From a virus: a stretch of 37,047 nucleotides of DNA. The position numbers and the translations under genes are program-made. The DNA lies in the IMG/VR virus record IMGVR_UViG_3300043470_000314, positions 1-37,047 of that record. One strand, 5' to 3'. Numbering within the stretch: the first letter of the stretch is position 1; each line of letters starts with the position of its first letter. The notes beneath the pieces were generated by a model. That model was given only the letters and a program-made list of their open reading frames with translations. It made no database searches and was not told where the DNA came from. Below, in pieces: positions 3,099 to 31,829 of this stretch.

Positions 3099-3199
3099 GC
3101 GAGAGTAAATGTATCAACGAGCGTTGTAACGAACCGGCAGGTGTCCTAGGCATGTGTTGGCCTTGTGCTTACTGGGCTTATGACAGGGAGACGAGCTAA
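3095..3199 (+). CDS. 34-residue zinc-finger-like peptide
   Basis: ATG 3095 overlaps the previous stop (ATGA) and has AAGGAG at 3083-3088 in front. The peptide has C6, C11, C21 and C24 in a C-x4-C...C-x2-C arrangement, enough for one zinc site. It stops at 3199, two bases before the next ATG. Its size and cysteine spacing match tiny zinc-finger proteins of actinophages with no known role. Confidence 0.6.
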   Translation: MSESKCINERCNEPAGVLGMCWPCAYWAYDRETS

Positions 3200-3201
3200 C
3201 T

Positions 3202-3387
3202 ATGAGTAGAACTATCAAAGTGGCTGTAAGAAATGTTATCGAGTTTGAAGTTGATGATGATTTTGAGATGACAAATTATGATAGTGAAAACTTTTTGGCG
3301 TTAGCTAAAAAGGCTATCATGTTGACTCCGCAGAGTGAGTTGATGAATGGTGCAAGGTATAAGATCAAAGGAGGAAACAATGAGTGA
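3202..3387 (+). CDS. 61-residue hypothetical protein
   Basis: It starts at ATG 3202, two bases after the preceding stop, with GGGAGACGAG in front as a ribosome site. The protein alternates short beta-like and acidic segments (IKVAVRNVIEFEVDDDFEM) and has a C-terminal ALAKKAIM helix. It overlaps the next gene by 8 bases. No family recognised. Confidence 0.7.
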   Translation: MSRTIKVAVRNVIEFEVDDDFEMTNYDSENFLALAKKAIMLTPQSELMNGARYKIKGGNNE

Positions 3388-7438: not shown

Positions 7439-7511
7439 GCCTCAATAGCTCATCTGGTAGAGCAACGCACTTGTAATGCGTAGGTGGCGGGTTCGAGTCC
7501 TGCTTGAGGCT
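7439..7511 (+). tRNA. tRNA-Thr (anticodon UGU)
   Basis: This is a full cloverleaf: acceptor GCCTCAA/TTGAGGC, D-stem GCTC/GAGC, anticodon stem ACGCA/TGCGT with loop CTTGTAA (anticodon TGT), and T-stem GCGGG/CCTGC with loop TTCGAGT. No CCA is encoded. It reads ACA (and by wobble other ACN) codons. Confidence 0.95.
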
Positions 7512-7581
7512 CGATGTGTGGTGGTTCGCACATTAAGGTAAGATGATTTCTTATTTGGTTATTTGTTCATTGGTAACAGGT

Positions 7582-7610: not shown

Positions 7611-7683
7611 TGGGACATAGCTCAGATGGCAGAGCGCCGAACTGTTAATTCGGATGTCGCAGGTTCGATCCCTGCTGTCCCAG
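7611..7683 (+). tRNA. tRNA-Asn (anticodon GUU)
   Basis: This is a full cloverleaf: acceptor TGGGACA/TGTCCCA, D-stem GCTC/GAGC, anticodon stem CCGAA/TTCGG with loop CTGTTAA (anticodon GTT), T-stem GCAGG/CCTGC with loop TTCGATC, discriminator G. No CCA is encoded. It lies 34 bases before the primase-helicase start. Confidence 0.95.
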
Positions 7684-7717
7684 CGTTTCAAGGAGAAGTA
7701 TTACAATAGGAGGTATG

Positions 7718-17376: not shown

Positions 17377-19036
17377 ACTTGTAAAGCGTATCTCCTAACG
17401 GATAAATAGTTGCGTCATTAAAAGTCATGTCACTATAGTATTCATCCAATTGCCCAAATGTTCTAGCCGGGTAATCATCGTTAAACTCAGTAAAAACCTG
17501 ACCACTGTATTGCGTGTTAAAAGTTGTAAAAGTATCTGTAGACTCAAACCCAGAAGTTTCACTAAAAGTATCAAAGTTCACAGAATATATACTAATTATA
17601 TCATCAAATCGTGTGTCGACTTTAGCGTTAATAGATATAGAAGCATTGTTAATTGTTGCTGTTTTAACCCTATAATATCCGTTGTCATACAAGAATCTTG
17701 CACCAACAATTTCAGTAAAATCATTATCTAACTGTGTAAAAGGTAGAGTCAGGCTTAAGTCCACTGTTGGGCCGGTAGCGTAAGCTGCGGCTTGAAGCAT
17801 GTGGTAACTAGCGTCGCTAATAAAAATGTTGTCAATAGTTGCTTTGCTGTCTTTTTCAATAAAGTTTCTGTCAGCCCCAGTGTCAACTGTGCGCATCACC
17901 TTAGTAACTTTTACTCCTTCGCCACAAATATATAAAGCTGGGCGGGTTTCAGTGTCATACTCTGCGATGCGGAAAGGTTCAGTATAAGCTGAGTTCGGTT
18001 GGTTTGGTGCTTGAATAATGATTTCAAGTTGCATAGGGTTTTCGTCAGAAACTTTTACAGTAATTTTACCCCCAGCTTCAACCCACCACTGTGGTGAAAC
18101 CGGAATGTTAAGATTGTCTACAACAACATAAGGGGATTTTGCTATGCCACCGGTGAAAGGGATTGGTTGGATTGCTTGCACACAAACAGGTTGAATGATT
18201 TTTTCAGTTGTTGTTGAGTTTGTTATGTCAACAACTTCCTTGATTCTTTCGCCCATGTTAACTTGATATGTTGTGCTGGCTGAGAAGATAACCATATCCT
18301 GTTCCCAGGAGCAGTCGTAGTCGTAAAGTTCTACAGATCTTGATGCGCCTAAGGCTGTGATGCTTCTTGAAACGCCGGCTGCTTCATCAACAAAAATCGT
18401 TCTCCTGCCCATTGGCACAAGCATTAGGTTACCTTCAGGGCCTACCAGGATATCGGCTTTGTTTGCGACACAAAACTGTTTCATATATTCCCAAACGTTG
18501 CCCTTCCAACCTGGGTATGCTACTGGAGTGGCAAAATCTTCATCAACGTCATCAGGGTTTACAGTGATCCCAGCAAGGCTACAGTAATATATGAAAGCTG
18601 TCTTAATTGTTTTGCCTTCTCCAAAGTGTGGTTCAGCGCTCTTAACTGCATTCATTTTAAACAAAGGCCCATCAACCGACATTGACAGATTATATCCAGA
18701 AATGTTCATTGAGCTTACTGTGCCGTGAAAAGTTCCTCTACCTTGCACAAGTCCCTGATAGTCGGATGGTAGTTCGCCATCAAAAATGCCGTAATCAGAC
18801 AAATAAACTTCACGACCCAGCAAAGCGGTGGATCGTTTGCTTCCAGTGATCTTAACAATGTTTCCATTAGCATCAACCTTTGTGAAGGTTCCTGGAGCTA
18901 TAATGTCTAATGTGCCAGTAGAGCCAGAGGAATCGGTAGCGTCTGTTGGTATTGATTCAAGCGAAAGGCTGTAACTTTGAATGTCCCCAATTTCAGCTTT
19001 GCTTGTAACGTCTTTAGTGACAAGTTTTACAGCCAT
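17366..19036 (-). CDS. Tail hub / baseplate-like minor tail protein
   Basis: This 556-residue protein lies directly after the Dit-like gene and before the fibres, the usual place of the tail-hub (Tal/gp27-like) protein. The N-terminal 120 residues are beta-rich, followed by the GKTIKTAFIYYCSLAGITVN and NVWEYMKQFCVANKADILV motifs seen in hub proteins that form the channel tip, and a beta-rich C-terminal half with IDNIFISDASYHMLQAAAYA. No lytic domain is visible. It overlaps the Dit-like gene by 10 bases. Confidence 0.75.
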   Translation of the reverse strand: MAVKLVTKDVTSKAEIGDIQSYSLSLESIPTDATDSSGSTGTLDIIAPGTFTKVDANGNIVKITGSKRSTALLGREVYLSDYGIFDGELPSDYQGLVQGRGTFHGTVSSMNISGYNLSMSVDGPLFKMNAVKSAEPHFGEGKTIKTAFIYYCSLAGITVNPDDVDEDFATPVAYPGWKGNVWEYMKQFCVANKADILVGPEGNLMLVPMGRRTIFVDEAAGVSRSITALGASRSVELYDYDCSWEQDMVIFSASTTYQVNMGERIKEVVDITNSTTTEKIIQPVCVQAIQPIPFTGGIAKSPYVVVDNLNIPVSPQWWVEAGGKITVKVSDENPMQLEIIIQAPNQPNSAYTEPFRIAEYDTETRPALYICGEGVKVTKVMRTVDTGADRNFIEKDSKATIDNIFISDASYHMLQAAAYATGPTVDLSLTLPFTQLDNDFTEIVGARFLYDNGYYRVKTATINNASISINAKVDTRFDDIISIYSVNFDTFSETSGFESTDTFTTFNTQYSGQVFTEFNDDYPARTFGQLDEYYSDMTFNDATIYPLGDTLYKYGN

Positions 19037-19932
19037 GCGCCTATCTCCTTAAGGCTGACAGACATTGTAATAAGCCTACGCCCATCCACAACGCCTTTAT
19101 AGTTCATTTGTGGGGCTCCAGCAATAGTGCAACCTGTAAAGCCTTCACCAGAGCTCCAAGGCCCTGAAACATCAATCGGCTGGTGGTGGTGAGAGCCACC
19201 AATTGCTGCAAGCTTTGCCATACCTCCGCGAATAGTAATCGTTGAAGAGGTGTTGTCTGTTCTTGAAATGTAAACTCGGATAGCGCGAACCCTGTTAGGG
19301 TTGCCCTCTTCGTTTGAGAAAGTGTCGCTGTAACGTGAACCAGTGCTAGCTGATAGTTCACCCAAAACAACTGTCGCCCCGTCAGTCCCATCAGGGTTGA
19401 CTTTAACCGCACGTATTGCTGCTGTGCCAGTTTTTGAATAAACAAAGCCAATGCTTAAACTGTGCCCCTCAGGAATCAAAAGGGTTAAAGAACGTGAAGT
19501 TTCTGCAGTGTTTGTTACAGGATACTTTGCGCTTTGGAAAGGAAAGTTGTTTGGGTTCGTTGTGTGGCTGATTGGTTCTGGCTTGTTGCCAGAGGAAATC
19601 AAGCTAGGCCAGTCACGCACAGTAAGCATGGGGGCGGCCCAGTGTGGCGGTAGGATGTTGTCTGCAAAAGGGTCTTCCCAGTAGATTAGCCCACCACCAT
19701 AAAGTCCGTCTTTGAAGTCTTTAATAACTTGCAGGTCGGCACGATCTCCCACCCAAGACATCTCAAAGTTGCGGGCTGAACCGAAAGAGGCTTTAACAAA
19801 CTGTCCACCATTAGTAAACTGTTGTTCTTCGGCGTTTCCGATTGCTGACGCACCCATTTCGGCTAGTGGTGCTTTAACCCATCTAGCGTTTCGGGCGTTG
19901 CCAAACCAAATTTTACCATCGTATGCGGCCAT
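19027..19932 (-). CDS. Distal tail (Dit-like) minor tail protein
   Basis: This 301-residue protein directly follows the tape measure gene; its ATG overlaps the tape measure stop by one base. N-terminal motifs (DGKIWFGNARNARWVKAPLA, SFGSARNFEMSWVGDR, DFKDGLYGGGLIYWEDPFA) match the Dit-like ring proteins of actinophages, and a galectin-like beta insert may occupy about residues 120-250. It would join the tail tube to the tip. Confidence 0.78.
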   Translation of the reverse strand: MAAYDGKIWFGNARNARWVKAPLAEMGASAIGNAEEQQFTNGGQFVKASFGSARNFEMSWVGDRADLQVIKDFKDGLYGGGLIYWEDPFADNILPPHWAAPMLTVRDWPSLISSGNKPEPISHTTNPNNFPFQSAKYPVTNTAETSRSLTLLIPEGHSLSIGFVYSKTGTAAIRAVKVNPDGTDGATVVLGELSASTGSRYSDTFSNEEGNPNRVRAIRVYISRTDNTSSTITIRGGMAKLAAIGGSHHHQPIDVSGPWSSGEGFTGCTIAGAPQMNYKGVVDGRRLITMSVSLKEIGAWL

Positions 19933-22900
19933 TAGTTGCTTCCTCTCATAGCCAGTAGCATGTTGCCTCGGTTTGCCGAGCTAGCAATTTGGCGGTCGTC
20001 ACTGTAAAGGTTTACAGGTCGGTTTGCGATTGCCATAATCTGCATTACTGCACTAGGTGATAATTCTACCACACTTGACCCTCCGCCGGAAACTGTTCCG
20101 ATCATACCACCGGATGCGTAGCGTGGAATTTGCATGTTGTTGATAGCATTCATGAAGTCCAGCCCGTAGTATTGAACAGCTTTTTGGTTTTGAATAAACT
20201 CGCCCGAGCGAACTGCCATCAGTCCACCAGGACCAGCGGCTAGCATGTTGTCTACTCTAGGGTTTTGTGGAGACTTTCCAGGGATTAGACCACCGGATGC
20301 ATAACCGACAACGCCACCGTTCCAGGCAGAATCTTTAATTGCTTTAGCAATCTGTTCAGCCATGTATTTTACGCTGTCTTTTTTAATCCCAATATCTTTC
20401 TTAACAGCGCTTGTTTGACCATCTTCTAGATAAAGTGGGTTAATTGCAGAGTTACCAGGAATTTTCTTATCAGAAAGAGTCGAACCAAGAGCCGCATCTC
20501 TAGCGTCATTTTGTGCCTTAACGATCTGAGCAGTGCGCTTGTCACCTTCGTCCATAATTTTATTAACCTTAGCGATGACACCACCCTTCTTAGTATCATC
20601 GCTAACAAGATCCCCAGCACCCTGTTTAGAGTCTGTGTTAAACATGTCGTTAACCTTATTAAGGTAAGGGTTGAATTCACCAGGGTATAGTCGAGCGTGT
20701 TCTGCACCAAGAGCCAATCGAGTCTTCTTGTTGTTCATGGCTGTTACCATTTCAGCATCCATTGGGCCCGTGTTGACTTGACCCGTATAAGGGTTATACT
20801 CTCCAGGGTGAGTAGCTGCGTGAAGTTCACCCCTTGTTTTCAAAGGAACCAAGCCCTTTTCGTCAAGCGTCTTCTTCGACTCTGGCCAAGGGTTCGGCTG
20901 GCCAGTGAACGGGTTATATTCTCCAGGGTAACGCTTTGCGTGAATAGCTGCATTCTTTTTAAGCATTGATACAGTTTGGTTAGCATCATACCCTGCCTGC
21001 TGATATTTGCTATGCATGCTCAAGATTTCGGTCGCACCTGTGCGAGCTGCCTGAGCCCCATTAGCCTTGTTGTAGTTAACGTTCTTAAAGTTGTCTACAC
21101 TTGACATGGCTGAACGGCTACCAATGATTTCGCCACTTCTAGCTACAAGCTTTGCTTCACCAGGATTTAGTTTGCCAGTGAATGGGTTTATTTCACCAGG
21201 GAACTTTGACGCATGTTCAGCTGCCATTGCCTTCTGGGATGCCACAGTGACACCAGTGCGTTTCATTCTTCCAGGAATGCCAGCTTCATCTACTTCTTGT
21301 TTGGCTTCGCCATAAATACGAGCCTGATCCCATTTGTATAGGCGCTCATCATACTGTTCGTTGTATCTCTTAGCCTTATTTACATTTACGTTATTGAAGT
21401 TATCATTGTAGTAGTCAATAGCTGCTTGCTCCTCCTTTGTCCTATCCTCCCTATCTTTATCCCATCCAGGCGATGCATCCATAGAGGCTTTCCATCTATC
21501 GCCATTGAATACATCTGCAAAACCAGCCCAAAGATCTGAAAATCTAGCTAGGACTAGATCGCCCTGACCAGCTTCCTTGACTGGCCTTACGTCAGACGAT
21601 CCATCCCATGCCTTAGTTGAAGGGCCATTCCACAACTCATTTTCGTTTGGGTCTGAGCTAGGGCCGTTAAACTGGCCCCCGTTTCCATTGGAAGATCCCT
21701 TCTTATTCCTTGAGCCTCCACCGTTATTTTGCTTAACCTGCCATTCCATGAATGCACGGGTTCCAGGGTCAGCATCAACACGAAGAGTAAGTTCCTTTGG
21801 AAGCTTGTCAACAATCGTGCGGAAGTCCTTAAAGGACTTAACATAAGGATCCATTTCCTCAGCAGAGAAACCAAGTGCCTGCCCCTGTGCTAGCATGTCA
21901 GCCTTAGCTTGGTCTGAACGCTTCTTCAATTCCTTCTGAGACAAGTTAGTGTTAGCAAGAGATTCAAGATACTTGTTGTAGTCTTGGATTAGTCCACGCA
22001 TGACAGCACGGTTATCAGCAGCCGCTTTAGTATTTCCGACTAGGCTAGTGCTTGCACCGTCCTGAGCTGTCCCAAGTTCCTTGCTCTTGTCAGCAAGTTC
22101 TTTGTCTTTTGCTTCAAGTTCTGCACGAAGTTTGTCAGCTCGCATAGTGTCGCCATACTTAAGCGCAATGTTGAGCTGGTATTCAAGAATGTTGCGGTCT
22201 GCAGTCATTGCCTTGATTTCGTCTTTAATCTTTTCGATTGCTTCACGAGCTTCGTCGACGCGGTTCTTAACGTTTTCCCATGAAGCAGCTAGAGCATCAG
22301 TTGCTTCTTCCTTGCCATAGCGAATAGTGAAAGCGGCGCTAAGGATAGAGGACAAGTCCCCAACATAATCAGTAAGTGTGTAAACACGAGCGATAGTGTT
22401 GTCAAGTTCACTATTTAGATCTCCAGCACCGTCTTCCGCTGCCCCCACGGAATTACCAAGAGCCTTCATTATCTTGGAGTTTTCAATACCAGATTTTGTT
22501 GTGCCGTCTAAAGCGTAAGCTATGTCTGAAAGGTCTTGATACAGGCCTGGGGCTGTAGCTCTAAGCTCTGCAGAGCTAGTGAACCAGCCTTCGAGATATT
22601 TAGAAGCACCATTCCCAGGGTCTTCTAATGCCATACCAATCATGTCTTGCAAACTTATGTTTGCATCTTTAGCAAGCTTGTCTAAGTCCTTGCCCATGTT
22701 GAAGTATTTTTTAAACTTTTCTTGAATCTGGTCGTCATTCATTGCTGCTTGAGCGAGCCATTCCATTGCGTTAGCGCCAAGAGCAAGAGTTTGCTCAGTA
22801 ATACTGTCAGTTGTTTCAGTAATAGCGCTGGTCATTTTTGCAGAAGAACCAGTGGTTGCTTCCATAGATTGCGCCCAAGCTGTTAGACCAGTCTCGGAGG

Positions 22901-25900
22901 TTGTGACTTTGCTCTGCACGGTATTGATGGCTTCGCCATTTTCTTTCCAAGCAGCAGTGTCTTTGTAGATTGCTTCACGGAAAGAGTCGAGGCCACCACC
23001 AGCCTCTTCGAGGTTGATCTGCATATCTTTGTAAATTTGCGTAGCAGCCCCAACGATAGTTAAGACAATCATTAATGCGCCAGCAGCTTTAGTTGCAAAA
23101 TCAACAGTTTTACCAAACTTAGTAGTAGCGGCGCTACCCTTATCTGCCTCTGTTGCAACAGTGTCAAGACCTGCGCCCATGTTGTTTAGAGACTCGGTGC
23201 TCTTGTCAACGTTTGTAGCAATTTCTTTAGGAACAACAGCTTCTGGGTTAATTGATGCAGTCTCTAGCGCTTCAAGGTTTTCTGCCAAGCCTTTGTCCAG
23301 GCTTTCTAATTGACCTATTTCGCGACTGCTAGCTGCTGCATCTGCGGCTGCTTTTTCGGCAGCGGCCGCATCACCTTGAGCTATAGCGTAAGCGTGTAAA
23401 CCGGTTGAAGCCTCAAGAGATTGTTGAGCAATCCTGGCGCGAATTTCAATAAGCTGTCGGTTAACTTCAATCTGCTCTTTTAACTGAGCAATGCTTGGAC
23501 CCTGAAGTTCTTCTGCAACGTTCGGCAAAAGCCCTCCGGGGTTCTCACTCAACGGACCAAGGGTCATTCCAGACTTGTAAGCGATCTCTTCATCCATTAA
23601 CCCAGGGTTTGCGGCTTTACGCACATCAAGGTTGGCTTTTAAGGCTCGGTCTATAGGGCTTCCATCGGGAACAACCTTGCCAAGCTCTTTCATCTCATTG
23701 AGACGGTCCTTAGTGATTGAGCGTAGTCGACCGTTAGAGTCGATAATCATACGCTCTTGACCTGTTAGCACATCCAGGAGGCCCTTGATGCCGGTGTTTT
23801 CTCCACCCATCTTGCCAATCTGAACCATAGCGGTTTTCATGGCAAGAGTCGCCGCTGTTGCTTTATAGGTTACAACCTGGTAAGCAACAAAACCTGCAAC
23901 CAAAGCTGCCAGGCCGGCTGCAATGCCAGTGATAAATTTACCAATTGGGCTTGCAGTGAACCTGTTAATCCACTCCATTGCGCCACTCATTATGTCAAGC
24001 AAAAACTTTAACCCAGGAGCAAAGGCTGCACCAAAGTTATCCTGAAGAATCTTTAACTGGTTGTTTAAGATTTCAAGTTTAGCGGCAACGTTGTCTTGAG
24101 TCTTAGCATAAGCTTCACCCAAGAAGGTTCCATTTTCGTAAGACTCTTTAGCGTCACCCATTGACTGGTTGTAAACGTCCATGTTCTTTGCCAAACGCTG
24201 AAGCGTGTTAACTTCACGAGTCTCAACAATGTTGAGCTTGTCAAGAGCTGTTGTCATACTTCCAGCTTTAGACAAGTTCTCAAGCATGCGCTGGAAAAAA
24301 GCTTGTGGGTCAGTTTCCCAAAGTTCTTTAGTTTCTTCAGCTGTTAGCCCAAGGTGTTTAGAGTAAGCGGTAAGTTCTTTTCCACCGTTTTGCATTCCAC
24401 GCTCAATGTCACCAAAGAGTCGCACAATAACACCACGAGCCTGTTCAGGGGCAATACCAAGTGAGGAAATTGCTGTGGCTAGACCGATAGTTTCGTCAGC
24501 ACCAAAACCTGCAAGGTTAGTAGCAGCCGCGATTGACTCGGTTAGGGTAATGATTTCTTGGTCAGTTGCAACAGCGTTAATACCAGCATAAGCAACAGCT
24601 GAGGCTAGCTTGTTAAAGTCGTCAGCCGGAATGTCAGCTAGCTGACTAATTCGACCAAACTTTTCTGCAACAGTGTCAGCAGACATTCCAGTAATTGTTG
24701 AATACTTTACAACCTGTTCGGTGAAGTTGTTGATACCGTCAGCGTTGATACCCATCTGTCCACCGAGGGTGGCGATCTTTGCTAGCTGGTCAAAGGCTAC
24801 AGGTAGCTCTTGTGTCATCAATACTAGGCGTTGGCGCATCCCATCGATTTCGTCTGGTAGCGGTTGCATTACACGCTCTACAGCGGTGAATGAGGTTTCG
24901 TAAGAAGAGTTAACCATAACCGCTTCACGAATGTAAGAGGTGAGCACACGAAGCTTCTTGCCCATGTCTTCATAAGTGCTGGCAACGTCATAGAGTGAGT
25001 AACGTGTTGAAATCCAGCTGTCAACCATTTTACGGTTAGCATCAGCAACAACCTTCTCGTGCGCTTGGACAGCTTTGCTCTGGGCTTCTAGAGATTTTTT
25101 ACGAGCCTTAGCTTCTAATTCTGCTCGCTCAATTTCCTGGTCAATCCAAACCCGGTTTTGGTTGCCTGGGTTTGCCGAATCCAAAACAAGAGCTTTATAC
25201 TCTGGAGTAGGCTCATCAGAATAGCCACCCCCAGGTGTGCCAGTCTTGATAGGCGGCTTCCCGGCTCCGCCTCCACTGCGGCTCGGGCGATCTTCAGGAA
25301 CTCTCGTGCCAGCCTCAACATCTATCTTATTAATAGCGCGTTTTGCTTTGTCAATAGCTTTTTGAATTTCATCAGCAAGTTCGCGAGAAGGCTTTTGCAG
25401 TTTTGCCTCAAAGTAAGAACGGACCTTTCCGTTCATACCAATCTGCGCCGCTACGCCTTGAGCAATATCTTTGTCTTCCATGGCTTTAGCAATGGAAGCA
25501 TTGTTTTTAGCAAGCTTTGGTTTTTCATCCTCAGTGATAGTTTTGCCAGCAATTTTAGAGTCGCTTAATTTATCAAAACCAATAGCCTTGTTCTCTGACA
25601 TGAGCTGTTCAACCATGTCAATCTTGTATTGACGTTCAGCCTTTAAGCGTTCTTGCTGTAGGCGAGCCTTTTCCTTTTCGCGCTCTTCAATTAGTCTTGC
25701 AAGTTCCTGTTCGTAAGCCTGTCGACGTTGAGCACTGTCTTGCATAGCCTGAATTTCAGCGTCATCAAACAATGTGTCCTGTGAACTTGGTGGGGTTACA
25801 AGAGTATTACGGCTTGGCACAGCAGGCTGGAGCTGCCCGCCATGAGTAGCTGCCTGAAGTTCCATGCCTTTTAGCGGACTATTGCCTACACGTTCGCGAC

Positions 25901-28900
25901 GGTTTCCCCAGATTGCGCTTGAAGCGTCTTTAACGGTTGCGCTTGTGAAGTCAACAAGTTCCTTGAACCAACCCTTCTGCTTTACGTTGTATTGTTTAGC
26001 AGCTTCCATCATGGATTTAAAAATAACTAGGGTAGCGTTTGCGTCAGTTTGTGGGTCGTGGGCTCCCTCAGCACCTGGCGCATAATTAGGGGTGCTTCCA
26101 GTTTTTGGGGTTAGCTCTGAACCCATTTCAGTGCCGCTGAAGAACTTGTAAATGTTTCCAAGTTTTTGCGAGAACTTTTCACCAAACTCTTTAAAGATGC
26201 CATTAAGCATTGTTGCCATGTTTTGGGTTTCAATAAGCATGCCAGAGTCACGCATTTGACCACCAGTAGGTGCTTCAATACCATAGTGAGCGAACTCTTT
26301 TCCAAGGGTTGTTAGGTCAGGAAGTGTTTGCCCGTGAATAGCTAATGGGGTTCCTGTTTCGTAAAGCTTCATCAAAAGAGCAGCAATGTCTTCAAGCTGT
26401 TCTACATAAGCTTGCTCGGAACCTTCTTTGTTTCGCTCAGGGTAACCAAGCTTATCCATCCGCTTACCAAGTAAATCGACAAGCTGTTTGTTGGTTTGGG
26501 TTCCATCACCAAGAATTCCAGCAATAGCTTGCTGGTTAAAGACACTGCCTTGCCTGTTTGGGTCAACTGGGGGGACGAGCATGTTATGATTGATTCCAAC
26601 GGTTTTAGGGCGAACAATGTCAACACCGTTACGCCCAGCGCTTGGTTGGCGGCTTTCTTCGCCAAAACCAGCGGTGGCACCATAAGCAAATACTCGGTTA
26701 CGCATTGCTCCCTTGGCTGGCTGATCCCCCTTGGCTGGGGTGGCAGCTAAAGCACCAGTTGATTCAATGTCGAGAGCCACAACAAGGTCTTCATTTGCGG
26801 CTTTAAGTGCATCAATAGCGTCTAGCGCAGGCTTGTTACGAGCTTTGATCTCGGCTGGGGTGGAAAGTTTATAGCCTGCAAGATTCTTTCCTTTAGGGTC
26901 ACCTGCTGGTGCTTGACGCATCTGTGCCTTAAGAGCATCAGCCTGCTTTGTTAGTCCAGCGTTTTCAAGCTCTTGGATCTTGGCAATAGCGTTGACCTTA
27001 GCCTGGTCAGAGTATCCAGAGCTGAATGATTCAGCAAGTGCCTTGCCTGCTTCGTTAAGATCTTTAAGACGCTTCTGTGAACCAACGATAACACCTTCAG
27101 CAGCGTCGCCAGCAGCATCGATAAAGTAGGTGGCTGGTGAGTTGCGACCAATTTGTTCGTCGAAACCATCGCCAAGGGCTTTACCCATGTCTGCACCGGC
27201 TTGGCCAATTTCACTTTCTTTAGCTGATAAGCCTTGTGTCAGACCAGCAACAATATCTCCAGCGGCTTTAGGGTCAATAGATTGTTTTTTAAAGTTTCTA
27301 GGCTGTGGGCGTTCTCCCATTTGTTTTTCAGCCTGACCCAAAGCCCAGTCTTGAACAGAAAGCTTTAACTCCTTAAGCGAAGGAGTTTCTCCAGTAAGGT
27401 CTAGATCATCAACATAACTTCCAAGTATTTCAGAAATCCATTTGTTAAACTTTTGGCGAACAGCTTTAACCTGGTCAATCATGTCAACTGGGTTTTCTTC
27501 GTCTCCGGCAAACTCTCCAGATTCTAATTGCTGAACTAGGAGGTCTTCAACCCTGTTGTATTCGTTTTGGAAATATTCTGCAAAAGGTTTAGAGGCATCA
27601 AACTGTGCCTTACTGAAAACGTCTGAAACTGATCCACCAAACTTGTCGACAGCATCTTGTTGCACAGAACGACCACGCATAGCAGCGTCTCTAGCGTTCT
27701 CACTGAAACCAAGCTGAGAAGGGTCTTGAGACGCATTCCACATTCCTCGATAGCTTGCCATTTCCCCACGCGAGTAAGGCCCGGCGTTAGCCCCAGTGCC
27801 AATACCTTTTTCAAAAGACGCATCAACTTGTGGCAAGGCGTTAGTAATGTCGCCAATCATCAAACGCTGTGTGCGTTCAGCAATGTAGTTGAGGAAAGCG
27901 TCACGGTTCTTTACAAAAGCTTCACCATAACCCATCTCAACTGGCTCTTGGCCTTGCTGGTAAGGTCCAGTTGGTGATGCTGGAGTAAACGTGTCTGGTT
28001 TAAACAATCCAGTTTGACCAATTTTTTCAGCAAAGCTGCCCTTGTAAATGGCGGCAAAATCTTGTTCAAGGCTCATCAGAATTTTAACTATAGGAGCAAA
28101 CATTCGGACACCAATGTCCGTGCCACCCATGTAACTTCCAGGGGTTGAACCAGTAGTTGATGATGATGTTTCTTGTCCAGTTGTTGGGTCAATAAACTTA
28201 ACCGTGGATGATGGGGAATAATTGTTTTGGTCAAAAAGTTTCTCAAGCGTGTTCTGGTCAGGAATGTTTGCGTTACCCATTCCAATCTTTGAAAGCTGCG
28301 CACCAGAAGTCTGAAGGTTATCTGTTAGCATTCCAGTGAAAATACCAAACTGTTCCGCTATTGCAATAAGGTCTTGTGCCCCAGCCGGAAGGTTTTTGAG
28401 GTCTGCCATGAAGGAATCCCATTGGGAGTTTACAAGCTTTCCAACGTTTCCGCCTTCTCCCTTGAGGTCAGGGTTGCGAGCTCCCATAGTAATCTTTTTA
28501 ATCATTTCCCAAATCTTTTGGGTTATGTCATAGCTTTGGCCAATCTTTGGCACTCCGCCGTAAACGTCTTCTTGGGAATCAGAAAATCCAAGCTGAGTGC
28601 TACCCTTCTTTTTTCCATCCTTTAAGGCACGGGCATCCCAAGCGGCTTGCGCTGCGTTACGTCGAGCAATTTCAGTAGCAAGATCAACCTTTGTCAGTTC
28701 GCTACTATACTCGTCTTCTAAACCGTAGAATGGTTTGGGGTTTTGTTGCACAATGCCGGCAGTAGGCACACTGCCTCTAGTGTTGCCTTTGTTAATAATT
28801 TTTAGCGCAGCGGTGGCATCAGTGAATGCACGAATGAAATCGTCTGCCGCAATTGTTAGTCCACCAAAGTTTGGGTCATATTCTTCGCCAAGTTTTTCAA

Positions 28901-30731
28901 TTGGGAAAAGTCCACCGATATAGTCTAGCGGTGCAATGCCTCGACTGTTCATTCCAGTTTCTGGGTCGTAGGTTGACCCAATACTTGAACCCCTTAAACC
29001 ACCAACCTCATTGCCTAGGCTAATCATTTCAAGAATGGTCATTACAAGATCATTCTTTTCTTTAGCCTGCTTGCGAAGAGCTTCGGCTTCTGTGATAATG
29101 TCTGAACCTAAACCAACGTCTTGACGCTGGTTTGACAACCTATCGGCGTTCTCTTTGTCATCGGCAGAGTATTGAGACCTTGTGATAGCTTCGGATTCGT
29201 CGTTGTCTTGGTTTTGCTCAAGAACTGTTAGTATGTCTCCGAGTGTCTGTGCCTGAGCAATTTCGCTGTCAGTGTCTTCGTCGTCTGATTCTTCAATGTT
29301 TAAAGTTTTCATTGTTTGGCTTATGATATCGCCAATGTCTTCTTTGCGCACACCAATGCCGGTGAAGGTCACTCCGCCAGAAGCTAAGGCTGCTTCAATT
29401 TGTCCTTTAAGTGCGTCAGCAAAACCGGCAGTAAACTCACTGCTTTCTTGTCCGCTCTTGCTTGTGAAGTCTTGGCTTATTGGGCCTGAGAGGCCAGGGG
29501 CGGCTTCAGCGGTTAGAGCTTTGAGTGCAGCCTTTGTTTTGTCGCCTCGACCCGTCCCGAGTGCTTCTGAAGCAAGTTTCAGAACGGAGGCTTCACGAGA
29601 GGCAATAACAGATGCGGCCTGTTCCGCTGTGATAACATCACGCTTAACAAGCGCCTGAATGATTAGGTCGTTAAGCGCACCGCTACCAGGAATGTTAGAC
29701 TTTTTAATTCTCTTCAAGAACTCTTCAGCGACAGACCTGGCTACGGAAGAAGTAACTCCGTCAACGTTAAGCCCGGCAAGCGGGTCGTAGTTTACTAGTG
29801 GCTTGTCTTCGTTCTTCTTCTTAGTTCCACGCTGACTTGGCTTATAAGCAGTAGTTACAAGGTTTGTTGGAAGATTGTTGGACCTTAAAGTAACTTCCAA
29901 GTAGGACTGGAACTTAATTGTCTCCTCAATCCACTCCTGAATGTCCTTAGCGTGTTGTGCCAGCTTTTTGTATTCAAGGCTTGCGGCTCCAGAGAAGTTG
30001 CTTTTTAGTTTTGTTGCACGAGAAGTCATTGCAGCAATTTCAGCTTCTAGCTGCTTCTCTTGCTGGATTAGTGGAGATTGCTTCTCACGCATTTTAACGA
30101 CAATGCCTTTACGGGCGCGGCTAGCAGGATCTTTGTCCGCTTTCCATTCAGCCTCGGCTTGTTCGCGAATCTTTTTAATTTCTCCACGAACAGTTGCAAG
30201 TTTTTTGTGAGAGTCAGTAACAGACTTTGTGATGCCTTCAATCTCTGAAGCAATGTCAAGCTGCGCCTCTGAAGGCTTCATTGCGGCAAGCTTTGCCTTC
30301 GCAGACTTTAACTCTGTGCGCAAGCCTGTAACAAGGCTGATTGGGCCTTCAATGATTTTGCGGAATTCGCCAAGAAGTTGTTTCTGTTCGCTTTCGTTCT
30401 TCGCAATGTCAGCTTTGAGTGACTTCATCTTTCCGCCACGCTGGGTCTTCACCTCTGGAGACATAGTGTTCCACTCGGCCGACATTAGCTTACCTAAAGC
30501 TTTTTCTTCTTTTTTAAGAGTCTTGTAACGGTCTCGCACACGGTCGATGTTTCTAATAACTTTGTCTACACCAGCAGCAGTGTCAGCCAAGTCAACGCTT
30601 ACAGACATACCGCTCAAGCGCTTCTGAATTTTCTCCTGTTCAAGCTGTGCTTGCTTTCCAAACTTCTTTAAATCAATCAGGGCAGGACTGGTGTCAAGGC
30701 CGAGTGATATGTTAAATCTTTCGTTCGCCAA
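19932..30731 (-). CDS. Tail tape measure protein, TP901 core, with exonuclease-like domain
   Basis: This 3599-residue protein would set tail length and help DNA entry. The N-terminus (1-300) is coiled coil. The TP901-type core is about residues 1900-2230 (GGQMGINADGINNFTEQVVK, IAAATNLAGFGADETIGLAT). Membrane spans lie near 2266-2287 and 2550-2568, with coiled coil at 2700-2850. Four HA-x4-PGE-x-NP repeats lie at 3173-3361, and the C-terminus has the usual GGLMAVRSGEFI motif. At about 1316-1580 lies a DEDDh exonuclease signature (separate entry). At roughly 0.15 nm per residue it predicts a tail near 540 nm. The start is TTG 30731 with AAGGA five bases upstream. Confidence 0.95.
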   Translation of the reverse strand: MANERFNISLGLDTSPALIDLKKFGKQAQLEQEKIQKRLSGMSVSVDLADTAAGVDKVIRNIDRVRDRYKTLKKEEKALGKLMSAEWNTMSPEVKTQRGGKMKSLKADIAKNESEQKQLLGEFRKIIEGPISLVTGLRTELKSAKAKLAAMKPSEAQLDIASEIEGITKSVTDSHKKLATVRGEIKKIREQAEAEWKADKDPASRARKGIVVKMREKQSPLIQQEKQLEAEIAAMTSRATKLKSNFSGAASLEYKKLAQHAKDIQEWIEETIKFQSYLEVTLRSNNLPTNLVTTAYKPSQRGTKKKNEDKPLVNYDPLAGLNVDGVTSSVARSVAEEFLKRIKKSNIPGSGALNDLIIQALVKRDVITAEQAASVIASREASVLKLASEALGTGRGDKTKAALKALTAEAAPGLSGPISQDFTSKSGQESSEFTAGFADALKGQIEAALASGGVTFTGIGVRKEDIGDIISQTMKTLNIEESDDEDTDSEIAQAQTLGDILTVLEQNQDNDESEAITRSQYSADDKENADRLSNQRQDVGLGSDIITEAEALRKQAKEKNDLVMTILEMISLGNEVGGLRGSSIGSTYDPETGMNSRGIAPLDYIGGLFPIEKLGEEYDPNFGGLTIAADDFIRAFTDATAALKIINKGNTRGSVPTAGIVQQNPKPFYGLEDEYSSELTKVDLATEIARRNAAQAAWDARALKDGKKKGSTQLGFSDSQEDVYGGVPKIGQSYDITQKIWEMIKKITMGARNPDLKGEGGNVGKLVNSQWDSFMADLKNLPAGAQDLIAIAEQFGIFTGMLTDNLQTSGAQLSKIGMGNANIPDQNTLEKLFDQNNYSPSSTVKFIDPTTGQETSSSTTGSTPGSYMGGTDIGVRMFAPIVKILMSLEQDFAAIYKGSFAEKIGQTGLFKPDTFTPASPTGPYQQGQEPVEMGYGEAFVKNRDAFLNYIAERTQRLMIGDITNALPQVDASFEKGIGTGANAGPYSRGEMASYRGMWNASQDPSQLGFSENARDAAMRGRSVQQDAVDKFGGSVSDVFSKAQFDASKPFAEYFQNEYNRVEDLLVQQLESGEFAGDEENPVDMIDQVKAVRQKFNKWISEILGSYVDDLDLTGETPSLKELKLSVQDWALGQAEKQMGERPQPRNFKKQSIDPKAAGDIVAGLTQGLSAKESEIGQAGADMGKALGDGFDEQIGRNSPATYFIDAAGDAAEGVIVGSQKRLKDLNEAGKALAESFSSGYSDQAKVNAIAKIQELENAGLTKQADALKAQMRQAPAGDPKGKNLAGYKLSTPAEIKARNKPALDAIDALKAANEDLVVALDIESTGALAATPAKGDQPAKGAMRNRVFAYGATAGFGEESRQPSAGRNGVDIVRPKTVGINHNMLVPPVDPNRQGSVFNQQAIAGILGDGTQTNKQLVDLLGKRMDKLGYPERNKEGSEQAYVEQLEDIAALLMKLYETGTPLAIHGQTLPDLTTLGKEFAHYGIEAPTGGQMRDSGMLIETQNMATMLNGIFKEFGEKFSQKLGNIYKFFSGTEMGSELTPKTGSTPNYAPGAEGAHDPQTDANATLVIFKSMMEAAKQYNVKQKGWFKELVDFTSATVKDASSAIWGNRRERVGNSPLKGMELQAATHGGQLQPAVPSRNTLVTPPSSQDTLFDDAEIQAMQDSAQRRQAYEQELARLIEEREKEKARLQQERLKAERQYKIDMVEQLMSENKAIGFDKLSDSKIAGKTITEDEKPKLAKNNASIAKAMEDKDIAQGVAAQIGMNGKVRSYFEAKLQKPSRELADEIQKAIDKAKRAINKIDVEAGTRVPEDRPSRSGGGAGKPPIKTGTPGGGYSDEPTPEYKALVLDSANPGNQNRVWIDQEIERAELEAKARKKSLEAQSKAVQAHEKVVADANRKMVDSWISTRYSLYDVASTYEDMGKKLRVLTSYIREAVMVNSSYETSFTAVERVMQPLPDEIDGMRQRLVLMTQELPVAFDQLAKIATLGGQMGINADGINNFTEQVVKYSTITGMSADTVAEKFGRISQLADIPADDFNKLASAVAYAGINAVATDQEIITLTESIAAATNLAGFGADETIGLATAISSLGIAPEQARGVIVRLFGDIERGMQNGGKELTAYSKHLGLTAEETKELWETDPQAFFQRMLENLSKAGSMTTALDKLNIVETREVNTLQRLAKNMDVYNQSMGDAKESYENGTFLGEAYAKTQDNVAAKLEILNNQLKILQDNFGAAFAPGLKFLLDIMSGAMEWINRFTASPIGKFITGIAAGLAALVAGFVAYQVVTYKATAATLAMKTAMVQIGKMGGENTGIKGLLDVLTGQERMIIDSNGRLRSITKDRLNEMKELGKVVPDGSPIDRALKANLDVRKAANPGLMDEEIAYKSGMTLGPLSENPGGLLPNVAEELQGPSIAQLKEQIEVNRQLIEIRARIAQQSLEASTGLHAYAIAQGDAAAAEKAAADAAASSREIGQLESLDKGLAENLEALETASINPEAVVPKEIATNVDKSTESLNNMGAGLDTVATEADKGSAATTKFGKTVDFATKAAGALMIVLTIVGAATQIYKDMQINLEEAGGGLDSFREAIYKDTAAWKENGEAINTVQSKVTTSETGLTAWAQSMEATTGSSAKMTSAITETTDSITEQTLALGANAMEWLAQAAMNDDQIQEKFKKYFNMGKDLDKLAKDANISLQDMIGMALEDPGNGASKYLEGWFTSSAELRATAPGLYQDLSDIAYALDGTTKSGIENSKIMKALGNSVGAAEDGAGDLNSELDNTIARVYTLTDYVGDLSSILSAAFTIRYGKEEATDALAASWENVKNRVDEAREAIEKIKDEIKAMTADRNILEYQLNIALKYGDTMRADKLRAELEAKDKELADKSKELGTAQDGASTSLVGNTKAAADNRAVMRGLIQDYNKYLESLANTNLSQKELKKRSDQAKADMLAQGQALGFSAEEMDPYVKSFKDFRTIVDKLPKELTLRVDADPGTRAFMEWQVKQNNGGGSRNKKGSSNGNGGQFNGPSSDPNENELWNGPSTKAWDGSSDVRPVKEAGQGDLVLARFSDLWAGFADVFNGDRWKASMDASPGWDKDREDRTKEEQAAIDYYNDNFNNVNVNKAKRYNEQYDERLYKWDQARIYGEAKQEVDEAGIPGRMKRTGVTVASQKAMAAEHASKFPGEINPFTGKLNPGEAKLVARSGEIIGSRSAMSSVDNFKNVNYNKANGAQAARTGATEILSMHSKYQQAGYDANQTVSMLKKNAAIHAKRYPGEYNPFTGQPNPWPESKKTLDEKGLVPLKTRGELHAATHPGEYNPYTGQVNTGPMDAEMVTAMNNKKTRLALGAEHARLYPGEFNPYLNKVNDMFNTDSKQGAGDLVSDDTKKGGVIAKVNKIMDEGDKRTAQIVKAQNDARDAALGSTLSDKKIPGNSAINPLYLEDGQTSAVKKDIGIKKDSVKYMAEQIAKAIKDSAWNGGVVGYASGGLIPGKSPQNPRVDNMLAAGPGGLMAVRSGEFIQNQKAVQYYGLDFMNAINNMQIPRYASGGMIGTVSGGGSSVVELSPSAVMQIMAIANRPVNLYSDDRQIASSANRGNMLLAMRGSN
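20649..21215 (-). repeat. Four-copy HA-x4-PGE-x-NP-x-TG protein repeat in the tape measure
   Basis: Four degenerate 18-residue units occur near the C-terminus: HASKFPGEINPFTGKLN, HAKRYPGEYNPFTGQPN, HAATHPGEYNPYTGQVN and HARLYPGEFNPYLNKVN. Their PGE prolines are P3178, P3269, P3309 and P3350, so spacing is 91, 40 and 41 residues. The core is HA-x3-(F/Y/H)-PGE-x-NP-(F/Y). I do not recognise it as a named domain. Confidence 0.85.
25992..26786 (-). other. DEDDh (DnaQ/RNase T-like) exonuclease domain inside the tape measure
   Basis: Tape measure residues about 1316-1580 show the three Exo motifs in order. Exo I is VVALDIESTG with D1321 and E1323; Exo II is AIHGQTLPDLTTLGKEF with D1472; Exo III is GAHDPQTDANATLVIF with H1558 and D1563, exactly the H-x4-D spacing of DEDDh nucleases. 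A helical DSGMLIETQN and KLGNIYKFF precede Exo III, as in DnaQ and RNase T. All five catalytic positions are present, so activity is plausible. Motif II is slightly longer than usual. Substrate and timing are unknown. Confidence 0.8.
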
Positions 30732-30750: not shown

Positions 30751-30773
30751 AGTGTATACACCTATTATACACT
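30751..30773 (-). repeat. Inverted repeat at the chaperone stop, before the tape measure
   Basis: AGTGTATA (30751-30758) and TATACACT (30766-30773) are perfect 8-bp inverted repeats around a 7-base loop. On the - strand the stem covers the stop of the downstream chaperone frame and lies just ahead of the tape measure's AAGGA site, so it could modulate translation or be an operator-like site. Confidence 0.45.
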
Positions 30774-31103
30774 ATCCCGGGCGGCTAAAGACTGGAAATA
30801 ATCGCTCCTAGAAGGCAAAGGACCATTGTCATAAGTGTAAGCCACAATGTAAGGATACTCACCATAAGACTTCTTTGTAGTCTTCTTTTTAGAGTCTTTT
30901 TCAAGCCACTTATCAAGCTCCGCTTTACCAAAACAACGCCCAGTCTTAATCTTAAAACCGACATTGGAAGCGTCCTCATTACGGCACACCCAGATAGGGT
31001 TGCCACACTCATTACAAGTTTCATCCTCAAGCGTCTGATACGCTTCTAAAAGCAAAAAGTCGAACGGAACCCAAGGGTCGCTAGGCTGCTCATGGAACAG
31101 CAT
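30765..31103 (-). CDS. Tail assembly chaperone, frameshifted C-terminal part (T)
   Basis: The 112-residue frame from ATG 31103 has the motif PWVPFDFLLLEAYQTLEDETC, a zinc cluster C30-x2-C33, C40 and C57, and a basic patch. It is probably not an independent gene. The frame is open upstream to 31187, where a TTTTTTA slippery site near the end of the preceding gene allows a -1 shift, adding TEVLTWEGNRQYLVRVKTA and more before this Met. Such zinc-bearing T parts bind the tape measure in lambda gpGT-type chaperones. The full fused product would be about 341 residues. Confidence 0.8.
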   Translation of the reverse strand: MLFHEQPSDPWVPFDFLLLEAYQTLEDETCNECGNPIWVCRNEDASNVGFKIKTGRCFGKAELDKWLEKDSKKKTTKKSYGEYPYIVAYTYDNGPLPSRSDYFQSLAARDSV

Positions 31104-31174
31104 AGCGACCGGACGGATCCCATTCTTAACGGCAGTCTTAACTCTGACGAGATATTGGCGATTGCCCTCCCAGG

Positions 31175-31789
31175 TTAAGACTTCGGTAAAAAACCTGCAT
31201 CCGTTAGTTGTTCAAAATAGCCACTAGCAAGAGTTAGCTTCTGCATCGTATCTGCAAGCACATCCCAAGCATCGCGGGTAAGGTCTTCACGAAGAGCATA
31301 CATTTCCTCAACAGTAAACAAGTGCTCGTCAACGTTACCTTCAGCATCTGTAACACGGATAATGTTCTGTGCTACCAAGCTTGACACATAGAACTTAACC
31401 CATTCAGGGTTGTTTCCGTTAGCGTCATCACGAGGATACTTTTCGTTAGCTTCAGCCATAACCTTGTCAACAATCTTCTGGCTAACGCCACGCATTGTGA
31501 AAGTAAGAGCCGACTTTAGAATCTTGTCAGCCAAAACCTTAGCCTTAGCTTCAAGTTCTTTCTGGTAATCAAGATCAAGGTAGCCGTTTAGCTCTTCATT
31601 AATTTGGGCAAGATCAAACGCCGCTTCAGCGTCAAGATAAATTGTTACATCCTTTGTAGGGAACCCACGTCCCTTAATAACCTCACTGAGGTTAAACACT
31701 CCCTTAGCCTGAGCTTCCTTAACGATAGCAAGAGTTTCCGCTACCTGATCTGGAACCTGCTCAGTTGTTGCTGTTGTTTCTTCGCTCAT
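31175..31789 (-). CDS. Tail assembly chaperone (G)
   Basis: This 204-residue protein starts at ATG 31789 (MSEETTATTEQ) with AAAGG about 8 bases upstream; the longer start at 31816 lacks a good site. It lies between the major tail protein and tape measure genes, the standard place of the G chaperone that keeps the tape measure soluble while the tube assembles. The sequence is acidic and helical with no enzymatic motifs. Near its end, TTTTTTA spans the codons for F209-L210 (numbered from 31816), and a -1 shift there makes the longer GT form. Confidence 0.85.
   Translation of the reverse strand: MSEETTATTEQVPDQVAETLAIVKEAQAKGVFNLSEVIKGRGFPTKDVTIYLDAEAAFDLAQINEELNGYLDLDYQKELEAKAKVLADKILKSALTFTMRGVSQKIVDKVMAEANEKYPRDDANGNNPEWVKFYVSSLVAQNIIRVTDAEGNVDEHLFTVEEMYALREDLTRDAWDVLADTMQKLTLASGYFEQLTDAGFLPKS
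31187..31193 (-). promoter_or_regulatory. -1 programmed ribosomal frameshift site (TTTTTTA)
   Basis: On the - strand the heptamer T TTT TTA fits X-XXY-YYZ exactly in the reading frame of the G chaperone (GGT TTT TTA). Slipping back one base switches from the frame that stops at 31175 to an open frame that runs without stop into the 112-residue T frame. The summed length is consistent to the base. This is the normal way tail chaperones of siphoviruses make their GT fusion. Confidence 0.88.
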
Positions 31790-31829
31790 TATTGCGCCTT
31801 TCGTATAACTGCCCATTGTGGAAGTTTAA

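Follow-up and report, generated by a model that had tools for sequence, protein, structure and literature searches.

The tape measure protein (TMP) encoded by this virus probably carries a complete DEDDh 3'-5' exonuclease domain (RNase H-like, of the TREX1/DnaQ type) that would be delivered from the particle and act at the site of genome entry, as judged from the sequence, its conservation, and the predicted fold. We call the window the whole stretch of DNA analyzed, an IMG/VR virus record of 37,047 bases, of the linear class and with a G+C content of 46%. The residues of the domain follow the order of the DEDDh superfamily, with Asp and Glu in Exo I, Asp in Exo II, and His-x4-Asp in Exo III (Table 1). 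The preliminary description of this DNA had named these motifs together with D1321, E1323, D1472, H1558, and D1563, and a check of the translation located all of them where it had placed them. It had also argued that the frame is continuous and that the domain is not an adjacent gene; indeed, the TMP is one open reading frame (ORF), and long unbroken TMP ORFs with the same domain are found in other contigs, thus ruling out a frameshift or a misjoined gene. The position of the domain inside the TMP stood, while its extent had to be enlarged from residues ~1316 to 1580 to residues 1296 to 1600, and the strand (minus) was missing from that description.

Table 1. Coordinates of the exonuclease-like domain, the TMP, and the neighboring tail genes in the window
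Feature	Position	Strand	Basis or remark
DEDDh 3'-5' exonuclease-like domain, residues 1296-1600	25932..26846	-	AlphaFold2, Foldseek, hhalign
Exo I motif LDIESTG, from residue 1320; D1321 and E1323	26754..26774	-	
Exo II motif TLPDLTTL, from residue 1469; D1472	26304..26327	-	
Exo III motif GAHDPQTDANAT, from residue 1556; H1558 and D1563	26031..26066	-	
TMP gene, 3599 aa, TTG start	19932..30731	-	Family matches and tail neighbors on both sides
N-terminal TMP part before the exonuclease, residues 1-1295	26847..30731	-	
Conserved TMP core, residues ~1889-2298	23838..25067	-	Stretch hit by tape-measure families
Tail assembly chaperone pair	30765..31816	-	Directly upstream of the TMP gene; ordinary tail context
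Minor (distal) tail protein	19027..19932	-	Directly downstream of the TMP gene

Structure prediction supports this assignment. The AlphaFold2 model built on eight sequences had a mean pLDDT of 82.2 and a pTM of 0.87, with the strand and helix order of the DEDDh fold, whereas the first run on four sequences had reached a pLDDT of 45 with TREX2 as the best Foldseek match (E = 0.15), a result that we do not count as evidence by itself. With the confident model, all 13 matches to the PDB at E ≤ 0.001 were TREX1 (best E = 5e-6, probability 1.00), followed by the MAEL domain of Maelstrom and then, with weak E-values, by the exonuclease domains of polymerases (Pol epsilon, RB69, T7). Among viral models, the named top matches were mostly exonucleases, DEDDh members included, and polymerases. 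The TREX1 overlays gave TM-scores of 0.43 to 0.46 by query and 0.55 to 0.58 by target with an rmsd of 6 to 7 Å, moderate values which indicate that the overlay covers the core and not every loop. The RNase H-like exonuclease fold, whose absence had been set beforehand as grounds for abandoning the idea, survived this examination, and the domain is predicted to have the DEDDh fold with the strands and helices of the family.

The relation is also detected when profiles are compared. We aligned with hhalign the profile of the eight domain sequences to that of 14 known DEDDh enzymes (DnaQ, RNase T, ExoX, and oligoribonuclease of Escherichia coli and ten phage enzymes) and obtained a score of 34.4 (E = 3e-4) with all five residues paired, compared to 11.3 for the reversed profile, 17.9 for the best of 100 column shuffles, and 18.1 for the unrelated TMP core; the hhalign probability was 40%, with a thin domain profile (Neff of 2.4). 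At the profile level, the domain is thus related to known DEDDh members. Only profile-profile and structure comparison detected this relation. Single-sequence searches of the domain against Pfam, PHROGs, the PDB, and GenBank phages returned nothing significant, and no curated family model (PF00929 RNase_T, NCBIfam) scored above its cut-off, which reflects the sensitivity of the search and not the definition of the enzyme; the NCBIfam model of Pol III epsilon was weakly matched by two domain members (E = 0.0067). With HMMER, the domain profile searched against single known DEDDh proteins was not separated from shuffles, and the domain is unlabeled in databases because this kind of comparison misses the relation.

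The preliminary description had proposed a search for the same insertion in other tape measures, and the domain was indeed found elsewhere, always in one clade. Scanning IMG/VR with the domain and then with the conserved TMP core yielded seven further distinct domain sequences, 31 to 77% identical to that of the window over the domain and six of them in complete TMP ORFs. The closest is L016 (77%), whose contig ends within the TMP, and the most distant is L011 (31%); the others are L001, L002 (identical to L003), L005 (identical to L021 over the extent of that contig), L007, and L009 (identical to L012). All eight sequences are from uncultured contigs; no relative of the domain was found among GenBank phages, and two contig scans of the GTDB genome collection revealed no prophage relative. 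The equivalents of D1321, E1323, D1472, H1558, and D1563 are invariant in all eight sequences, at identities down to ~30%. These residues had been named before the alignment existed, and 39 of its 247 ungapped columns are invariant, so that the probability for five random columns to be all invariant is ~8e-5 (~2e-4 when drawn among the D/E/H columns). Also invariant are the AHDPxxD of Exo III and H1466, six residues ahead of D1472. Over the domain, dN/dS was ~0.11 to 0.21 for the pairs window/L016 and L001/L002, compared to ~0.4 to 0.8 over most of the TMP segment N-terminal to it for the same pairs; these values are rough, with synonymous sites near saturation. By this measure, the exonuclease-like domain is under purifying selection.

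The carrier protein is identified as a TMP by strong family matches and by its gene context: it matches the PHROG 17594 tail length tape measure family (E = 5e-132), with a PF10145 PhageMin_Tail match at residues 1972 to 2157, and its gene is the longest of the tail genes, flanked by the chaperones and the distal tail protein. Two strongly hydrophobic segments, at residues 2266 to 2284 inside the core and at residues 2545 to 2563, both lie C-terminal of the exonuclease. We compared 68 distinct tape measures over their cores, and the exonuclease TMPs grouped in one clade (support of 1.0), with L029/L031 as sister group. In this clade, the complete TMP ORFs are 3,316 to 3,712 residues long (stop to stop) and the core starts at residues 1450 to 1993, whereas in other TMPs the core starts at residues 54 to 388 of ORFs mostly 1,000 to 1,850 residues long; in the window, the N-terminal part and the exonuclease place the core at residue ~1890. 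Neither the domain profile (no match) nor a generic DEDDh profile (no convincing exonuclease) found the domain in TMPs outside the exonuclease clade, and no stand-alone gene for it was found near the TMPs of the clade. The late start of the core and the absence of the domain from the other TMPs suggest that the domain arrived on a single branch, either as part of an extension of >1,000 residues or together with it. Within the clade, L005 is 91 to 98% identical to the window over the core (residues 1901 to 2300) but 42 to 55% over residues 1301 to 1900 (25044-26843, minus strand) and 70 to 76% just before; L016 is 59 to 85% identical around the domain and 21 to 41% over the first 900 residues. 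On these comparisons, the TMP is a block mosaic within the clade, with modular swapping inside the protein. In the C-terminal part of the window TMP (residues ~3173 to 3361; 20649-21215, minus strand), the motif HxxxxPGExNPxxxxxN occurs four times (e.g., HAKRYPGEYNPFTGQPN); there are three copies in each of the L002 and L005 TMPs and none, by pattern, in the other TMPs checked.

We propose that the domain is most likely a metal-dependent 3'-5' exonuclease that travels in the virion and is delivered along with the TMP when the genome enters the cell, for which we infer catalysis, substrate, and target. The lumen of siphophage tails is ~4 nm wide, and a globular domain of 305 residues (~33 kDa) would be ~4 nm wide as well by the usual volume rule; since other TMP copies share the tube, the domain is probably unfolded or distorted in the virion and would be silent inside the tail lumen. 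TMPs are released from the tail earlier than the DNA; the TMP of the window would thus exit ahead of its genome and take the exonuclease domain along, to be folded at or beyond the cytoplasmic membrane. Folding on exit has been proposed for a TMP-like effector (PMC13277306), and the TMP of lambda was found together with proteins of the inner membrane while the genome was being injected (PMC13190303). Once folded, the domain could bind two metal ions via D1321, E1323, D1472, and D1563, with H1558 as the general base, and would remove nucleotides from 3' ends, of DNA more likely than of RNA, DNA being favored because TREX1 is the nearest fold. Its use would most likely be at the entry site, against harmful nucleic acids (host defense nucleic acids, DNA ends of the host or of competitors) or for the trimming of exposed ends. 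Actinophage genomes often have 3' overhangs, which would be open to a 3'-5' exonuclease; hence, either the phage ends would be shielded from the domain or trimming of its own ends would be part of the job. More tentatively, and with appreciable doubt on our side, the TMP-borne nuclease might clear nucleic acids at genome entry, as counter-defense or against competing DNA, before phage gene expression, the block-wise swapping then being the trace of an arms race.

Several other explanations have to be weighed. An active exonuclease acting on RNA or short oligonucleotides, in the manner of RNase T or oligoribonuclease (e.g., on tRNA ends or linear signaling oligonucleotides early in infection), is the most serious of them, and we consider it rather unlikely: the same five residues are found in RNase T, oligoribonuclease, and ERI enzymes, all of the DEDDh family, the aligned core is common to RNase T and Orn of E. 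coli, and the first, low-confidence fold search also returned ERI2, 3'hExo, and CNOT, but the confident model matches the DNA exonuclease TREX1 ahead of every RNase. It is improbable that the fold was kept and its enzymatic use lost, the domain serving as a nucleic acid-binding module to guide or slow the DNA in the channel. A module that binds and does not cut would fit a position in the path of the DNA, yet the four acidic metal ligands and the catalytic His, needless for binding, are invariant at 30% identity.

We give the same low credit to an action in the producing cell during assembly, e.g., the trimming of DNA ends at the head-tail joint. The TMP is made before tail assembly, and cytoplasmic action of the domain is conceivable at that time; however, siphovirus heads are filled apart from the tails, and during assembly chaperones bind the TMP, around which the tube then closes. 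Finally, a chance match of the motifs in a TMP region of another kind, to which the lack of sequence matches in Pfam, PHROGs, and the PDB could have pointed, is largely refuted by the fold model, the structure matches, the profile comparison with its shuffles, and the invariance of the residues, and appears highly improbable. A delivered 3'-5' exonuclease is therefore the reading that we retain.

Among known enzymes, TREX1 is the best match of solved structure, with the five catalytic residues in the same order, and its Exo II Asp is also preceded by a His at a distance of six residues. The same spacing is found in the exonuclease of phage SSU5 (HNGEAFD), as for H1466 in the window. The likeness to TREX1 and TREX2 concerns the overall predicted fold only: identity to TREX1 is ~14%, and TREX1 is a free-standing animal enzyme and not part of a virion protein. 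DnaQ/Pol III epsilon and the phage DnaQ-like exonucleases had all catalytic residues paired in the profile alignment, and the enzyme of Flavobacterium phage Fpv8 has the element KLGDTYKRYTG...AHDALNDVRATL in common with the window domain. However, DnaQ-like enzymes are encoded by separate replication genes, whereas the window domain sits inside a tape measure and is recognized by no curated model; a loop of ~20 residues separates its KLG helix from the HD.

TMPs with embedded virion-associated lysin (peptidoglycan hydrolase) domains have been described in TM4, T5 (pb2), and phiIPLA35 (PMC6116005 and references therein). As in these phages, the enzyme domain of the window is built into the TMP and would be carried in the virion, but theirs cut the cell wall whereas ours has a predicted nuclease fold, which would place its target at the membrane or within the cell. 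The effectors of contractile injection systems (Sle1; PMC13277306) are likewise TMP-like carriers with exchangeable functional domains that are ejected from a tube; they belong to tail-like particles and not to a phage tape measure, and the word nuclease is absent from that paper. SNIPE, a host membrane nuclease (PMC13190303), also ties nuclease action to the TMP at the genome injection site, but it is a host defense cutting phage DNA, whereas the putative nuclease of the window is part of the phage's own TMP. In the open-access papers searched, we found no exonuclease or DEDDh domain described in a tape measure, such enzymes appearing only as separate genes, which agrees with the view of the preliminary description that no TMP family with a 3'-5' exonuclease had been reported and does not prove priority. 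Thus, TMPs with embedded cell-wall enzymes were known, and the embedded enzyme reported here would be of an activity class undescribed within that literature. A nuclease in the TMP could allow a phage to bring nucleic acid processing to the entry site before expressing any gene. What happens during injection to DNA and RNA at the membrane, the place of action of host systems such as SNIPE, becomes testable. The domain is small and expressible, with clear catalytic mutants.

The genes of the window are divided between the strands. The plus strand carries early genes, which encode a helicase, a Cas4-like exonuclease, a Sak4-like annealing protein, a primase, and a WhiB regulator. The minus strand carries the tail genes, with the fiber, the major tail protein, the two chaperones, the tape measure, distal tail proteins, and an M23 peptidase. 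The phage WhiB gene suggests an actinobacterial host. There is no small immunity-like gene between the TMP gene and that of the distal tail protein, and PADLOC matched nothing noteworthy. The chaperone pair has a slippery TTTTTTA in its 37-base frame overlap, the usual -1 frameshift arrangement. On the plus strand, a WhiB domain and a WhiA-type HTH domain are joined in a single phage protein (10550-11059), and two tRNA genes, tRNA-Thr (TGT) and tRNA-Asn (GTT), are located at 7439-7512 and 7611-7684, respectively.
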